From Desulfovibrio sp. G11 (lineage in GTDB: Bacteria > Desulfobacterota > Desulfovibrionia > Desulfovibrionales > Desulfovibrionaceae): a DNA stretch of 64,000 nucleotides. The notes below the pieces were generated by a model, which did no database searches, was not told where the DNA came from, and saw only the letters and a list, made by a program, of their open reading frames with translations. The stretch's first letter is position 1; every line of letters begins with the position of its first letter. Below, in pieces: positions 4,965 through 30,129 of this stretch. Made by a program: the position numbers and the translations under genes. The stretch is from positions 682,001-746,000 of the forward strand of contig NZ_LT984798.1 of NCBI RefSeq assembly GCF_900243745.1, written 5' to 3'.

Positions 4965-5842
4965 GCGCATATTCCACCGGGCTTGAGCTTATTCTCAATG
5001 CGGCCGAGGGCGTGTTGCAGATCATTGTCACGGATGACGAAAAACTGCTCTGCGCCCAGGAATGGCGCAGAGCTGACCGCGCCACGGAAATCCTGGCCCC
5101 GGCGCTGGAAAACATCTGCACCGCCCTGGGCATAAAACCCGCTGATTTCAGGCGGCTGGCCTGCGTACGCGGCCCGGGTTCCTTTACGGGCATACGGCTT
5201 GTACTGGCTACGGCGGCCGCCCTGCGCAGGGGCGGAAGGGCCGGGCTGGCCGGGCTGGATTATATGCAGGCCCTTGCCACCACGGCCGTACAGCGCCGCC
5301 AGCTTCTTTTCGGCGCGCCCGTGTGGGCGATTACCCATGCACGGCGCAACCTCGTGCATTGCCAGTTTTTTTTGTCCTACGGGCCGATGATTCCCGCGCA
5401 GCCGCTGGCTCCGGTAGACCTGTGCACGCCGTACGAAGCCCTTGCCCGCATTCTGGACAGCCGCACAGCCCCCCTGCCCCAGGGGGTTCCCGCAGGCAGC
5501 CGCATAGTGTGGGCCTGCGGCAGCGGGCTTGCCCGGAATGCCGCGGTATTCTCCTCGCTGGATCCCCTGCGCCCCTCCCCGGACGGCAGCCAGTACTGCG
5601 CCGACACCGAAAACGCGCCGGTCACGGCACTGGATGACCTGGTAAACCCCGACATCCAGTCCCTGTGCCTGCTTGCCCGGCACGGCGACTATGCCAATGC
5701 CGACCTGGAACCTTTCTATGTGCGCCCCTGCGATGCGGTTGAAAATCTGCCCCAGCTGGCTCCGCGCCAGGGGCTTACAAGCGAAACCGCCTCCGCTGCC
5801 CTGGAACTGCTGCTGCAACGGCCGCCCCGCAGTGACATATAG
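4961..5842 (+). CDS. tsaB: tRNA threonylcarbamoyladenosine biosynthesis protein TsaB
   Basis: Non-catalytic partner of TsaD in the complex that installs t6A37 on ANN-decoding tRNAs. The ASKHA-fold N-terminus contains the family signature RGPGSFTGIRLVLATA at about residues 70-85 and an adjacent AGLAGLDYMQALA segment. It is longer (293 aa) than the ~230-aa E. coli protein through a divergent C-terminal half. The ATGA overlap with the rseP stop indicates coupled translation. TsaB is assigned rather than TsaD because the metal-binding HxxxH of TsaD is absent. Confidence 0.85.
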   Translation: MSAYSTGLELILNAAEGVLQIIVTDDEKLLCAQEWRRADRATEILAPALENICTALGIKPADFRRLACVRGPGSFTGIRLVLATAAALRRGGRAGLAGLDYMQALATTAVQRRQLLFGAPVWAITHARRNLVHCQFFLSYGPMIPAQPLAPVDLCTPYEALARILDSRTAPLPQGVPAGSRIVWACGSGLARNAAVFSSLDPLRPSPDGSQYCADTENAPVTALDDLVNPDIQSLCLLARHGDYANADLEPFYVRPCDAVENLPQLAPRQGLTSETASAALELLLQRPPRSDI

Positions 5843-5854
5843 GACGATTTATCC

Positions 5855-5876
5855 TTTGAGAATGCATGTTCTCAAA
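5855..5876. repeat. Palindrome TTTGAGAA-N6-TTCTCAAA
   Basis: Perfect 8-bp arms around TGCATG, 12 bases after tsaB. Near-copies occur at 35470-35491 (CTTGAGAG-N6-TTCTCAAG) and 41487-41507 (TTTGAGAG-N5-TTCTCAAA), all intergenic. A half site is at about 14225. It may be an operator for a dimeric regulator or a short dispersed repeat; the sequence alone does not decide. Confidence 0.55.
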
Positions 5877-5901
5877 GCTGGCAACATGTACCCTACGGGT
5901 T

Positions 5902-6024
5902 TAGAGTAATTACGGCTTCAAATGATTGCTTAACGGTCGGCAAAGCCGTCCTACAAGCATCTGGCGACAAGAATTTGGAGACAAATCCTTGTCGAGTCTT
6001 CTTCCCGCGCGAATGTGCGTTCTC
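5902..6024. repeat. Dispersed structured element, copy A
   Basis: Shares a core of about 85 bases with 48413-48528. Identical blocks include TTCAAATGATTGCTTAACGG, CGGCAAAGCCG and CAAATCCTTGT. The core folds into two hairpins: CGGC-AAA-GCCG, and CGACAAG...CTTGTCG (about 5964-5993). In copy B the second stem is CTACAAG...CTTGTAG, a compensatory change. The outer stem seen in copy B is eroded here. It lies between tsaB and rlpA and has no coding potential. Confidence 0.6.
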
Positions 6025-6553
6025 CAGGTGAGTTATACATCCCGCCGGCGCCTAGCCACGCAAGTAAATTATACTTGCACTCCACAGCAGGCGTTCGTTC
6101 ACGCAGCCGCCAGAGCATCTTTAAAATGAAAATGCTCTGAAGCAGCTACCAGTTTACCGCGCTCTCACACACTTCGTTTGGGCCGCGCCCGCAGGCGGCT
6201 CCCCGCACACAGCCAGCTGCGCACCCTTTCACCACGCCGCTGGGCATTTTTCTGCATCCCCAATCCACATGCAGTTGCTACCCATATTCGCAGACAGCAG
6301 TGCAGCGCACAGCGCACACACACAACGATATCTGCCTGGAAGCTGCCCGAACAGTAGCGTCGGCCGGGTAGCTTTTTCTGTTGCCGCCCACATTTTCGGG
6401 CTGGATTCTTCTTTTCCGCTTGGCGCGCGGAGAGGTATTTTTGCTTCACCCTGCAAACATGCAAAACAATATACTATATTCTATTTACAGTACTCTAGCA
6501 TTTGTCTAGAAAAAATTTGCTGATAACAACTTGAATTACATATCTTTGTCAGT
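6025..6553. other. Non-coding stretch between tsaB and rlpA
   Basis: About 530 bases with no credible gene. It holds a palindromic repeat (AGAGCAT...ATGCTCT, 6114-6138) and otherwise mixed-composition sequence that becomes AT-rich toward the rlpA promoter at 6554. Confidence 0.5.
6114..6138. repeat. AGAGCAT palindromic repeat
   Basis: Arms AGAGCAT and ATGCTCT enclose an A/T-rich loop; the inner bases TTTAAAATGAAA extend the pairing partly. The ends match the terminal bases of the elements at 48413-48528 and 63850-63882, so this appears to be a short member of the same family. It is not flanked by TA here, unlike the copies that overlap stop codons. Confidence 0.5.
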
Positions 6554-6583
6554 TTGACACCGAAGTTTTTATTACGGTATATT
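6554..6583 (+). promoter_or_regulatory. Sigma-70-type promoter of rlpA
   Basis: Exact -35 TTGACA (6554-6559), 18-base spacer, -10 TATATT (6578-6583). Transcription would start near 6590, giving a 5' leader of about 145 bases before the ATG at 6736. Confidence 0.75.
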
Positions 6584-6609
6584 CCCCTATCAAGAAAAGG
6601 CATCCCCCA

Positions 6610-6716
6610 ACGAGACGGACCGGTCAGGAGCGCAAGGCGCTTCCACCGTCATTGGAGAGTCTCCGGGGTCAGGACCACGGGCGTGGTCCGCCCGGCATCC
6701 GCCGGACAGCCTCGAA
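6610..6716 (+). ncRNA. Structured 5' leader of rlpA, class unknown
   Basis: Between the promoter and rlpA the sequence can form at least four stems: GACGG/CCGTC enclosing GGAGCGC/GCGCTTCC; GGAG/CTCC; a perfect 7-bp hairpin GGACCAC-GGGC-GTGGTCC (about 6672-6689); and CCGGC/GCCGG. CGAG (about 6610) and CTCG (about 6713) could close the whole. The density of stems suggests a cis-regulatory RNA, but I do not recognise the conserved core of any known riboswitch. Confidence 0.4.
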
Positions 6717-6735
6717 CTGTAACCAAGGAATGATC

Positions 6736-7536
6736 ATGAAGTATTCACGCTGGCCTTCCATGCTGGCGGTCGCGGTCGCATGTATGCTATTGGCCGCCCC
6801 CATGAAAGCCGACGCGGCTTCTGCAAGCGCTCCTTCCGCTGAACTCTCTTCAAACGCATCCTCATCCGGCGCCTCCAAAGCTGTAAAAAAATCATCCCAA
6901 GCGCGCCCCGCCAAGTCTGAACAGAATAAAAAAGCTGTTAAAACCAGCCAGTCCGGCAAAGCGGCTAAAACTGCCAAAAGCGGCAAGGCAGCAAAGTCTT
7001 CTGCCAAAAGCAAAGCCGTATCCGAACAAAGCGTTGACAGCCGCGACATATGGCTCCAACGCGCCCAGCAAAGCGAAGTTTTCACCGGCAAAGCATCCTG
7101 GTACGGCCGCGACTTTCACGGCGGCGCCACAGCCAGCGGCCTTAACTACGACATGTACACCTTCACCGCTGCCCACCGTACTCTGCCCATGGGGACTGTC
7201 GTGCGTGTGACCGACCAGGAGAACGGCAAGAGCGTCATGGTTTGCGTGACAGACCGCGGCCCCTTTGTGCGCGGCCGCATCATTGACCTTTCTTTTGCCG
7301 CTGCCCAGCAGCTTGACCTTGGCACACGTGGCGTGGGCAAGGTGGAGCTTGAGGTGGTCAGCGACGAAAGCGGAACCCCCCTGCAGGCCGATCAGGCCTA
7401 CTATGTGCGTTACAATGCCGCCATGGGAGACGAACGCATCGGCCCCTTCCGTGCCTTTGCGGATGCCGCCGCCATGCATGAGGCCCTGCGCCAGGCCCAT
7501 CCCGAAGCAGAAGTTGTACTGGGGCACTCCCGCTAG
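6736..7536 (+). CDS. rlpA: RlpA-like septal/cell-wall protein
   Basis: Exported double-psi beta-barrel protein related to RlpA lytic transglycosylases, which act on denuded peptidoglycan during septation. 266 aa from the ATG at 6736, chosen because AAGGAA lies just upstream. A signal peptide (MKYSRWPSMLAVAVACMLLA) is followed by a Lys/Ala/Ser-rich linker (about residues 35-105). The RlpA core is GKASWYGRDFHG, TAAHRTLPMGT, VTDRGPFVRGR and IDLSFAAAQQL. The last ~45 residues (YYVRYNAAMGDERIGPF) could be a degenerate SPOR-like segment. No lipobox cysteine is evident, unlike classic RlpA. It has its own promoter and a structured leader. Confidence 0.85.
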   Translation: MKYSRWPSMLAVAVACMLLAAPMKADAASASAPSAELSSNASSSGASKAVKKSSQARPAKSEQNKKAVKTSQSGKAAKTAKSGKAAKSSAKSKAVSEQSVDSRDIWLQRAQQSEVFTGKASWYGRDFHGGATASGLNYDMYTFTAAHRTLPMGTVVRVTDQENGKSVMVCVTDRGPFVRGRIIDLSFAAAQQLDLGTRGVGKVELEVVSDESGTPLQADQAYYVRYNAAMGDERIGPFRAFADAAAMHEALRQAHPEAEVVLGHSR

Positions 7537-7924: not shown

Positions 7925-8045
7925 ATGGGCTTTTTTTACAGCATGCTCTCTTCGGCAGCCTTCGGGCTTATCCCCCTTTTCAGCCTGCCGCTCATGGCCA
8001 GAGGACTTTCTCCGGCTACCGTACTTTTTTACCGTTTTTTCATTG

Positions 8046-8048
8046 CTT
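8046..8048. repeat. CTT target duplication, left side of IS30 copy 1
   Basis: Matches CTT at 9131-9133. The rebuilt EamA sequence ATTGCTTCCATTG needs only one copy, which fixes the insertion boundaries to within a base. Confidence 0.7.
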
Positions 8049-9130
8049 CGCGGTTTCAAGTTCAAAGTGCAACACCCAGTCCTTGGGTATTGGCGTCTTC
8101 TAAAAAAACTTCATAGGGTGTCTTAAACCCAAGGCATTTTCTAGGCCGCCAGTTCAAGCGGCACATTGCCGCTATGATCTCATCTTGCGTGACCGATGCC
8201 AAGCTTACCCCCTTGGGGAAGTATTGGCGTAGAAGGCCATTGGAGTTCTCGTTCAAGCCACGCTCCCACGAATGGTAGGGGTGCGCAAAAAATCCCTGAG
8301 CCTCGAGTGTAGCTGACACATCGGCATGGTAGCTGAACTCCTTGCCGTTATCATAGGTAATAGTCTGAACAAAGTCCTTAATGGGTGTCAAGAGTCCTTC
8401 AATGACCCGCCTTACTTCGCTGGCGCTTTTGTTGGGAGCCTTGCCAAACAGGAAAAGACGACTTTTACGCTCTGCAAGTGTCACCAAAACGGGGCCTCCT
8501 TTACTGCCTTCAACGGTATCAGCCTCCCAATCACCAAGGCGTGAGCGCTCGGCAACAATGGACGGGCGTATGTCTATGCTGATACGCCCCTTGATTTGAC
8601 CTCGTCTGTCGGGTTTGCCATATCGTCGTTTGCGTTTGCGCTGGCAGCGCAAATGGCTGTGCAGCGTTCCTCCTCGTTTTTTGTCCGCCAGAATGTACTG
8701 GTAAATCCATTCATGACTGAGGGCAAAACCTTTGCGTTTGAGAACTCCAGAGATTTGCTCCGAACTGAAGTCCTGGTGCAGACACTGTTCAACATACGTC
8801 CATACCTCAAGGCCAATGCGCTTCTTCCCTTTACTGGTCTGCCTTTTCTGACTGCGCTTGTGTGCCTGCCTGTAGCGGTAGCCACGCGCCCCGGTATTTC
8901 GCGCAAGTTCGCGGCTTACAGTTGAGACGCTACGGCCTATCGCTTTGGCTATGGCCCTCAGTGACGTTCCACTTTTCACTGCCTGGCAGATGTAGTACCG
9001 TTCTTCCCTGGCAAGGTGTGCATAGCCCATACGCCCCTCAATCTTTGGTTGGATGGAGAGGCTAAAGTGCTATACCACCTTGCCTTTTCATTCAACCTTG
9101 AGGGTGTTGCACTTGCAAGTTGAATCCGCC
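8049..9130 (-). mobile_element. IS30-family insertion sequence, copy 1
   Basis: 1082-bp element carrying one transposase. The ends are inverted: the left end reads CGCGGTTTCAAGTTCAAAG and the right end, reverse-complemented, GGCGGATTCAACTTGCAAG; both continue into TGCAACACCC. Flanked by 3-bp CTT duplications, typical of IS30. It differs from copy 2 (29048-30129) at the one base I can find, 8763 A versus 29762 G. It interrupts the EamA transporter. Confidence 0.9.
8062..9030 (-). CDS. IS30-family transposase
   Basis: 322-aa DDE transposase. The N-terminal helix-turn-helix (SLRAIAKAIGRSVSTVSREL) binds the ends. The catalytic triad is seen in DWEADTVEG, TYDNGKEF and the Glu in ERGLNENSNGLLRQYFPKG. 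Relative to the second copy it has Ser instead of Pro in QDFS(S/P)EQISGVL; Pro is the usual residue in IS30 proteins, so this copy carries the derived change. It fills almost the whole element, on the strand opposite the interrupted gene. Confidence 0.95.
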   Translation of the reverse strand: MGYAHLAREERYYICQAVKSGTSLRAIAKAIGRSVSTVSRELARNTGARGYRYRQAHKRSQKRQTSKGKKRIGLEVWTYVEQCLHQDFSSEQISGVLKRKGFALSHEWIYQYILADKKRGGTLHSHLRCQRKRKRRYGKPDRRGQIKGRISIDIRPSIVAERSRLGDWEADTVEGSKGGPVLVTLAERKSRLFLFGKAPNKSASEVRRVIEGLLTPIKDFVQTITYDNGKEFSYHADVSATLEAQGFFAHPYHSWERGLNENSNGLLRQYFPKGVSLASVTQDEIIAAMCRLNWRPRKCLGFKTPYEVFLEDANTQGLGVAL

Positions 9131-10026
9131 CTTCCATTGTACTGGGGATACTGCTCCTCCTACGCGGCGAGCGCCTGCATACCTCGGGCCGCAACCTTGC
9201 CAAACTGACGGGCATGAGCCTCATGTACGCCATGGCGGCCCTGCTGTTCATGCAGGCGTTCAAGTACATGCCGAGCGGCGTGGCGGCGACCCTGCATTTT
9301 TCTTACCCGGTAATGGTCATGCTCATGATGATTGTCTTCTTTCATGAGCGTTTTTCCGCGGTCACCGCTCTGGCCGTGGTTCTGGCCATCAGTGGCGTAT
9401 ACCTGCTGAGCGGCGGCGCGCAGCCCGGCAGCGTAGCGGACATGAGCATGTTCGGCCTGGCGCTGGCCCTGGCTTCCGCCCTGTGCAATGCCATCTACAT
9501 CACCAGCCTTTGCGCAGCCCGCATCAGCAATATGACGGGCCTTGTGCTCACTTTTTATGTAATGGCCTTCGGCGCGTTATGCTCGCTGGCAAACTCGCTG
9601 GCAACAAACAGCTTCCAGTTGCTGCAAAGCTGGCAGGAACTGGCCCTGGCCGCCCTGCTGGCCATAGTAACAGCGGTGCTTTCCAACTACACCCTCATCC
9701 TGGCCGTACAGCGCATCGGCTCTACCCTGGCGGCAGTGATGGGCGTGCTGGAGCCTGTTACCGCAGTGGTCGTGGGCATACTGGTGTTCAACGAGCCGTT
9801 CAGCCTGTCGCTGGTTACAGGACTGGCCCTTATTGCGGTTTCGGTGGTTCTGGTCATGCTTGGCGGCCACATACGCCACCTGCTGGAGCGCCGTAAAGCA
9901 AGGCGCACGGGTGACAATCCCGGAGCATCCGGCCGCTGACCCGCCGGTGACACCGCCCGCCCTGTCTACCCGCATATGCGGCATCGCCGTCTGCACTGCC
10001 TGACAAAATTTCTGTATAAACAAAAA

Positions 10027-28549: not shown

Positions 28550-29047
28550 ATGACAGGTCCCATAATTAACAGCACTTGCTTGGCGGCAGGCAGCATCATA
28601 GGAGCTGTTTTTGCCTGCTATATTCCAGCACGTGTAAAATCATCACTTCCCCTGACAGCAGGGCTTATCACGCTAAGTTTGGGCAGCTCCCTGGTCGGAA
28701 AAGCCGCACATTTTCCTGCGGTTGTTCTTTCCACCCTTGTCGGCGCTGCCATTGGGGAACTGTTTTATTTTGAAAAAGGCCTTGAAACTGCAATCAAACG
28801 CCTTCTGACACGTTCAAAAAAATCCGGCGACATCAACAACGAAGAACTTGCCCTTCAGTATATAACGCTTGTTTCCGCATTCTGCTTCGGAAGTATGGGA
28901 CTGTTCGGCGCGGTTGAAGAAGGCATCACCGGAACTACAGGACTATTATTAACAAAAAGCGTTCTTGATTTATGCAGCGGCATTATCTTCGGAGCCAGCC
29001 TGGGGGCCAACGTCGGGATTATTGCTATTCCTCAATTCTTGATACTT

Positions 29048-30129
29048 CGCGGTTTCAAGTTCAAAGTGCAACACCCAGTCCTTGGGTATTGGCGTCTTCT
29101 AAAAAAACTTCATAGGGTGTCTTAAACCCAAGGCATTTTCTAGGCCGCCAGTTCAAGCGGCACATTGCCGCTATGATCTCATCTTGCGTGACCGATGCCA
29201 AGCTTACCCCCTTGGGGAAGTATTGGCGTAGAAGGCCATTGGAGTTCTCGTTCAAGCCACGCTCCCACGAATGGTAGGGGTGCGCAAAAAATCCCTGAGC
29301 CTCGAGTGTAGCTGACACATCGGCATGGTAGCTGAACTCCTTGCCGTTATCATAGGTAATAGTCTGAACAAAGTCCTTAATGGGTGTCAAGAGTCCTTCA
29401 ATGACCCGCCTTACTTCGCTGGCGCTTTTGTTGGGAGCCTTGCCAAACAGGAAAAGACGACTTTTACGCTCTGCAAGTGTCACCAAAACGGGGCCTCCTT
29501 TACTGCCTTCAACGGTATCAGCCTCCCAATCACCAAGGCGTGAGCGCTCGGCAACAATGGACGGGCGTATGTCTATGCTGATACGCCCCTTGATTTGACC
29601 TCGTCTGTCGGGTTTGCCATATCGTCGTTTGCGTTTGCGCTGGCAGCGCAAATGGCTGTGCAGCGTTCCTCCTCGTTTTTTGTCCGCCAGAATGTACTGG
29701 TAAATCCATTCATGACTGAGGGCAAAACCTTTGCGTTTGAGAACTCCAGAGATTTGCTCCGGACTGAAGTCCTGGTGCAGACACTGTTCAACATACGTCC
29801 ATACCTCAAGGCCAATGCGCTTCTTCCCTTTACTGGTCTGCCTTTTCTGACTGCGCTTGTGTGCCTGCCTGTAGCGGTAGCCACGCGCCCCGGTATTTCG
29901 CGCAAGTTCGCGGCTTACAGTTGAGACGCTACGGCCTATCGCTTTGGCTATGGCCCTCAGTGACGTTCCACTTTTCACTGCCTGGCAGATGTAGTACCGT
30001 TCTTCCCTGGCAAGGTGTGCATAGCCCATACGCCCCTCAATCTTTGGTTGGATGGAGAGGCTAAAGTGCTATACCACCTTGCCTTTTCATTCAACCTTGA
30101 GGGTGTTGCACTTGCAAGTTGAATCCGCC
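29048..30129 (-). mobile_element. IS30-family insertion sequence, copy 2
   Basis: 1082 bp, the same length and ends as copy 1 (8049-9130); the only difference I find is base 29762. Flanked by CTT at 29045-29047 and 30130-30132. Inserted in the DUF554 gene in the orientation opposite to that gene. Confidence 0.9.
29061..30029 (-). CDS. IS30-family transposase
   Basis: 322-aa DDE transposase identical to the one at 8062-9030 except for Pro in place of Ser in QDFSPEQISGVL; this is the usual IS30 residue. The helix-turn-helix, DWEADTVEG, TYDNGKEF and ERGLNENSNG motifs are intact, so it is probably functional and the likelier source copy. Confidence 0.95.
   Translation of the reverse strand: MGYAHLAREERYYICQAVKSGTSLRAIAKAIGRSVSTVSRELARNTGARGYRYRQAHKRSQKRQTSKGKKRIGLEVWTYVEQCLHQDFSPEQISGVLKRKGFALSHEWIYQYILADKKRGGTLHSHLRCQRKRKRRYGKPDRRGQIKGRISIDIRPSIVAERSRLGDWEADTVEGSKGGPVLVTLAERKSRLFLFGKAPNKSASEVRRVIEGLLTPIKDFVQTITYDNGKEFSYHADVSATLEAQGFFAHPYHSWERGLNENSNGLLRQYFPKGVSLASVTQDEIIAAMCRLNWRPRKCLGFKTPYEVFLEDANTQGLGVAL

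Follow-up and report, generated by a model that had tools for sequence, protein, structure and literature searches.

A conserved structured RNA in the 5′ leader of the cell-wall gene rlpA of Desulfovibrio

In other phyla, ydaO riboswitches often lead cell-wall hydrolase genes. The leader of an RlpA-like gene in Desulfovibrio sp. G11 raises the question of whether it, too, folds into a functional RNA, and of what such an RNA might do. The leader lies in a window of 64,000 nt, the whole stretch of DNA analysed, and all coordinates are positions within this window on the forward strand.

Promoter and layout of the rlpA leader

The promoter TTGACA-N18-TATATT named in the original prediction is present (Table 1), and its letters are conserved. 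TTGACA and the 18-nt spacer are kept in all 28 leaders examined from group A, a set of relatives described below, with the −10 box placed 10–17 nt upstream of helix P1 (14–17 nt in 27 of the 28). The leader that follows measures about 145 nt, as predicted, and ends at the rlpA start at 6736. Genes upstream of rlpA encode a protease of the M50 type with PDZ domains and a member of the TsaD family; we read them as rseP and tsaB, respectively. About 700 nt (5842–6550) without a clear gene separate the tsaB-like gene from the rlpA promoter.

The RNA element in this leader is a four-way junction, in which P1 encloses the three hairpin arms P2, P3, and P4. The junction is separated by about 8 nt from the predicted transcription start on its 5′ side and by about 13 nt from the Shine-Dalgarno sequence on its 3′ side. 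A perfect 7-bp hairpin, likewise foreseen from the sequence, is present and forms P3. The P2 arm also holds an inner stem. AAGG occurs up to three times per group A leader, namely in the P1 5′ strand, the P2 apical hairpin, and the Shine-Dalgarno sequence. SAM-I type riboswitches are four-way junctions as well, with P1 closing three arms; unlike these, the rlpA leader has no Rfam match.

Table 1. Features of the rlpA locus and parts of the RNA element (window coordinates).
Feature	Position	Strand	Evidence or remark
Sigma-70-type promoter TTGACA-N18-TATATT	6554..6583	+	11/12 consensus matches
Whole conserved RNA element	6594..6730	+	covariance model R1 match, 135.9 bits (by construction, as the window leader is among the 25 sequences in the model)
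P1 5′ strand AGGC, invariant	6598..6601	+	group A alignment
P2 arm, whole	6605..6668	+	fold and alignment
P2a	6605-6608/6665-6668	+	part of P2 arm
P2b GAGAC/GUCUC	6612-6616/6659-6663	+	part of P2 arm
P2 apical hairpin	6627-6633/6637-6643	+	part of P2 arm
Junction J2/3 UCA	6669..6671	+	97% identical, 25 leaders
P3 hairpin, 7 bp, GGACCAC-GGGC-GTGGTCC	6672..6689	+	two-sided changes in 5/7 pairs; 0/1000 nulls
P3 loop GGGC, invariant	6679-6682	+	25 leaders
P4 hairpin CCGGC/GCCGG	6692..6705	+	two-sided changes in 4/5 pairs; 0/1000 nulls
P1 3′ strand GCCU, invariant	6709..6712	+	conservation in group A alignment
Shine-Dalgarno AAGGA	6725..6729	+	11 nt upstream of start codon
rlpA, 266 aa	6736..7536	+	DPBB_1 (lytic transglycosylase) domain, 2.5e-24; genus-specific orthologue

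The expectation that most bases pair in four or more stems was borne out only in part. The minimum-energy fold of the window leader does contain about four stems (−54.8 kcal/mol), but in this GC-rich sequence that is no better than chance: an equal or better fold was reached by 40 of 200 dinucleotide shuffles (z −0.86). Therefore, any claim for the structure must rest on comparison.

Conservation and covariation within the genus

Of 79 Desulfovibrio genomes, 77 contain an RlpA relative; the genus was identified by organism names in a second genome collection (for example D. desulfuricans SIG61, Desulfovibrio sp. ZJ369, MES5). Two genomes with weak RlpA matches (G075, G076) were left out. The best place in each of 75 genomes, with two places in G012, gave 76 loci (L016–L091). 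Group A comprises 29 of these (L016–L043, L045), which share the pattern AAGGCA..CC..GGUCAG-P3-CG..P4..CAGCCU..AACcAAGGA. Alignment A1 holds 25 group A leaders, omitting L021 (close to L020), L025 and L026 (identical to L024), and L037 (at a contig end).

In A1, 95.2% of the pair cells are standard, compared to 37.3–45.3% with the partner strand slid by 1–3 columns, a comparison that is not independent of A1 as the structure was fixed after inspection of this alignment. Two-sided changes occur in 12 of 28 pairs, and pairing survives them in P2, P3, and P4. None of 500 shuffles reached A1 on four of five measures, while the fifth, further pair types, was reached by 344 of 500. Since relatives share history, we additionally used a phylogeny-aware null, in which the same number of substitutions was simulated independently on a FastTree tree in 1000 runs. 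Neither P3, nor P4, nor all variable helices combined was matched in any run (0/1000 each); individually, the P2 sub-helices are not significant (P2a 114/1000, P2c 129/1000, P2d 676/1000). P1 is free of substitutions in group A, and covariation consequently lends this helix no support. When all pairs of columns were scored by a G-test against a similar null, a P3 pair (columns 90–101) came out at the top of the whole alignment (E 0.017), with the other structure pairs above 0.05, such as 107–173 (E 1.96), 92–99 (3.4), and 15–80 (7.6).

Conservation is concentrated in P1 and the P3 loop (mean pairwise identity 1.000 each) and in J2/3 (0.973), while P3 (0.73) and P4 (0.71) vary with their pairing kept and the inner P2 arm falls to 0.545. 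For comparison, rlpA fourfold sites reach 0.558 and the DNA upstream of the promoter 0.496. Further invariant unpaired letters in group A are the CA preceding the P1 3′ strand. The leader is thus conserved among rlpA orthologues, with its structure kept and covariation in P3 and P4, the opposite of the outcome named beforehand as refuting the prediction. We regard it as very probable that the rlpA leader is a functional cis-acting RNA structure.

Beyond group A, the leaders differ strongly in letters and share the layout AGG, three hairpins, CCU, 12–17 nt, and AAGG. From the 76 loci, 47 leaders were picked by eye, comprising 28 of group A, 7 of B, 4 each of C and D, and 2 each of E and F; L037 (contig end), L084 (model match E 2.8e-4), and 27 loci without a recognisable element were omitted. 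Folded alone, 44 of the 47, or 41 of 44 distinct ones, form exactly three arms between AGG and CCU, a layout found in only 7.8–18.1% of shuffles (mean z by group −1.6 to −4.3). The distance from CCU to the Shine-Dalgarno sequence is 12–17 nt in all 47, at overall segment lengths of 97–192 nt (135–192 nt in group A). Divergent leaders with this layout and spacing extend the element to 18 genomes beyond the 30 with clear matches. By genome, A is present in 29, E in 1 (in two copies), B in 7, C in 4, D in 4, and F in 3 (including L084), giving 48 of 75; by eye, no recognisable element was seen in the other 27 of the 75 genomes with the rlpA locus read.

The covariance model R1, which was built on group A, matches the group E leaders (7e-9, 1e-7) and L084 (2.8e-4) exactly at the leader. 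It finds groups B, C, and D as well as L089/L090 weakly but in the right place (E 0.2–7) and L052 in part, with L064 and L065 lacking a listed match. Group B supports its own fold: in seven leaders, 97.3% of the pair cells are paired and 7 of 21 pairs show two-sided changes, which mostly separate one sequence (L052) from the others, and 0 of 500 shuffles reached it on four of five measures. Junction letters differ between the variant groups, and the P3 loop is not conserved in B, C, D, and F. A loose search of 29 set-aside loci gave nothing convincing. By eye, two loci (L077, L083) may carry a GGC/GCC-closed version of the junction, with the letters GGGCAUUCC, upstream of rlpA. G012, a genome with 5% contamination, has two rlpA copies on two contigs (L044, L091), each with its own group E leader.

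Distribution and relation to known RNA families

Across the 79 genus genomes, R1 matches in 31 at E≤0.1. Thirty of these matches reach E≤4e-6, each directly ahead of rlpA; the remaining one (G069, E 0.0087) lies away from rlpA and looks like chance. The genome of strain G11, which is complete, holds a single copy (next match E 2.7). Weak matches that might mark other copies in G002, G188, G183, G069, G066, and G074 (L109–L114) were not accepted: L109 and L110 lie inside open frames, L111 ends in a Shine-Dalgarno-like stretch with no rlpA-like frame after it, and L112–L114 were judged from alignments only. Within the genus, the RNA precedes rlpA only.

Outside the genus, no credible copy was found in samples of 247 family and 297 phylum genomes, searched with stricter filters at which weak matches are lost. 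The family sample gave 25 matches at E≤0.01, of which 22 are strong and all in the genus and three are weak. The phylum sample gave eight at E≤0.001, seven in the genus and one outside (G455, E 3.7e-4), which falls within the terminal part of an open frame for a 443-aa membrane protein. In the leaders of 69 RlpA loci from other bacteria, one match at E 0.22 was obtained and none better. The RlpA orthologue itself is genus-specific, its best matches outside being about 50% identical over the domain only. The element is thus lineage-specific.

It is also uncatalogued in Rfam. The suggested check of the leader against Rfam covariance models (Rfam 15) returned three sub-threshold matches up to E 10, none of them credible. 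The whole window at gathering score gave two tRNAs only, and 20 of the 76 relatives' loci gave nothing at the leader at E≤5. Together with the conserved, covarying structure, this supports the proposal that the structured leader is of a different or new class. The proposed link to ydaO riboswitches did not hold. Both lead cell-wall hydrolase genes, but RF00379 (ydaO-yuaA) matches neither the leader (E≤10) nor any of the 79 genus genomes, while the same search was positive in two of 14 control genomes (Bacillus subtilis and C. glutamicum). Only the ydaO aptamer is thereby ruled out; c-di-AMP is possibly still the signal. It is one candidate because the genome encodes a c-di-AMP synthase (DAC) domain (PF02457, 1.1e-40) and the genus lacks ydaO riboswitches. 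Group B leaders begin with AAAGGCAAACC, which we take to be reminiscent of the c-di-GMP-I family. No Rfam match in the leader or in the 20 relatives' loci backs this assignment; RF01051 matched neither the leader nor the genome of strain G11, in a search in which the control genomes were also silent.

The literature surveyed, mostly titles and the starts of abstracts with few subscription papers and no supplements, contained no description of an rlpA leader motif, nor did the portions consulted of PMC11109978, PMC8632094, and PMC2864571. As far as its consulted portions go, PMC11109978 describes two comparable cases. The YjbJ motif (WRC-39-1) of Streptococcus is a conserved RNA structure before the gene of a predicted lytic transglycosylase; it is confined to one genus and appears in that paper among weak riboswitch candidates. 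Like the rlpA leader, it is found shortly upstream of the Shine-Dalgarno sequence of such a gene in a single genus; it differs in phylum and gene, and the likeness is one of description only. The gcsH motif (WRC-77-1) of Desulfobacteraceae, which controls gcsH, is similarly a leader motif that is rare and restricted to its lineage, here another group of sulfate reducers, with a different gene and again alike by description only.

Possible functions of the leader

We consider it probable (roughly 0.6) that the RNA serves as a lineage-specific cis-regulatory 5′ UTR of rlpA, acting on translation initiation or mRNA stability. This level of action is suggested by the lack of an intrinsic terminator in the leader and by the held distance between the P1 3′ strand and the Shine-Dalgarno sequence. 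No terminator-like site was found on the + strand within 6590–6735, so that attenuation of transcription by such a route is unlikely, and the constancy of the spacing despite leader lengths of 97–192 nt points to the ribosome binding site. Two other modes were rejected. For an RNA thermometer, the Shine-Dalgarno sequence would be expected in one stable helix, but it is not buried in this way (mean unpaired probability 0.08–0.77). A leader peptide or coding extension disagrees with the group A indels, which are not in multiples of three.

As P1 5′ strand and Shine-Dalgarno sequence share AGG or AAGG, the CCU of the P1 3′ strand could pair with either. With P1 closed by the junction, pairing to AGGC would occupy the GCCU strand and leave the ribosome binding site free; with P1 open, CCU could pair with the AGG of the Shine-Dalgarno sequence. 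By eye, this alternative pairing is extended to CCUUG/CAAGG in groups D and E and in L029. We propose this specific switch tentatively and judge it doubtful. Upon folding with some coding sequence, the probability of P1 exceeds one half in 7 of 38 usable leaders, and that of the CCU:Shine-Dalgarno pairing exceeds 0.2 in 5 of 38, nine of the 47 rows having been dropped as the wrong AGG or CCU was picked. These energies do not clearly favour the switch and do not decide the matter.

Translational control with competition between P1 and the Shine-Dalgarno sequence is the mode that we propose as most likely, and its main rivals are mRNA stabilisation and a true riboswitch. As a riboswitch, the junction would switch P1 upon binding an ion or small molecule, which could be c-di-AMP or some other signal of the cell wall or of stress. 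A conserved structured leader before a gene is what this reading expects, P1 adjoins the ribosome binding site of a cell-wall hydrolase gene, the P3 loop GGGC, J2/3 UCA, and the CA before the P1 3′ strand are unpaired yet invariant in group A, and a c-di-AMP synthase gene occurs in a genus devoid of ydaO riboswitches. We nevertheless hold it to be unlikely: the element serves one gene per genome and is restricted to a genus, the ligand is purely hypothetical, and junction letters change between the variant groups, which argues against one conserved ligand pocket. A Desulfovibrio-only riboswitch class that senses a cell-envelope signal and gates lytic transglycosylase translation via P1/Shine-Dalgarno competition is more speculative still. 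A constitutive stabiliser, a 5′-terminal junction that would protect the rlpA mRNA from decay without switching, is likewise improbable. The E. coli ompA leader protects its transcript in this manner, and both the distance of about 8 nt between predicted 5′ end and structure in group A and the variation of arm lengths under a constant layout would suit such a role. However, a stabilising stem would not need the P3 loop and the junction letters to be this invariant, and the spacing from P1 to the Shine-Dalgarno sequence is held.

Recognition by an RNA-binding protein or a base-pairing small RNA would account for the GGGC loop of group A and for the conserved A-rich spacer GAAC..AACCAAGGA, but the partner is hypothetical and the loop is not conserved in B, C, D, and F; we assign this explanation a lower chance than either stabilisation or a riboswitch in general. 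Chance folding of GC-rich DNA, conserved by common descent alone, is hardly credible. It agrees with the single-sequence z of −0.86, but is contradicted by the two-sided changes, by the phylogeny-aware nulls, by the shuffles (A1, group B, and the three-arm layout), and by P1, the P3 loop, and J2/3 being more conserved than rlpA fourfold sites.

With the rlpA leader, sulfate reducers have a statistically supported structured RNA that is absent from Rfam and belongs to a single cell-wall gene. Should it act as a switch, it would give access to the control of cell-wall cleavage in Desulfovibrio and might represent a second way in which RNA couples a signal to cell-wall hydrolases. The rapid divergence of its arms, with the layout kept constant, lends itself to studies of leader RNA evolution.

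Downstream of rlpA, a transposase gene (8062–9030, − strand) encodes an HTH_38 domain with a weak integrase-core match and reads as IS30-like. It seems to split a gene for an EamA-type transporter, with EamA matched weakly at 7925–8053 and clearly at 9214–9936. A second transposase copy is located at about 29045–30090, and a 300-nt stretch at the edge of the first (8046–8345) recurs with 100% identity at 29045–29344.
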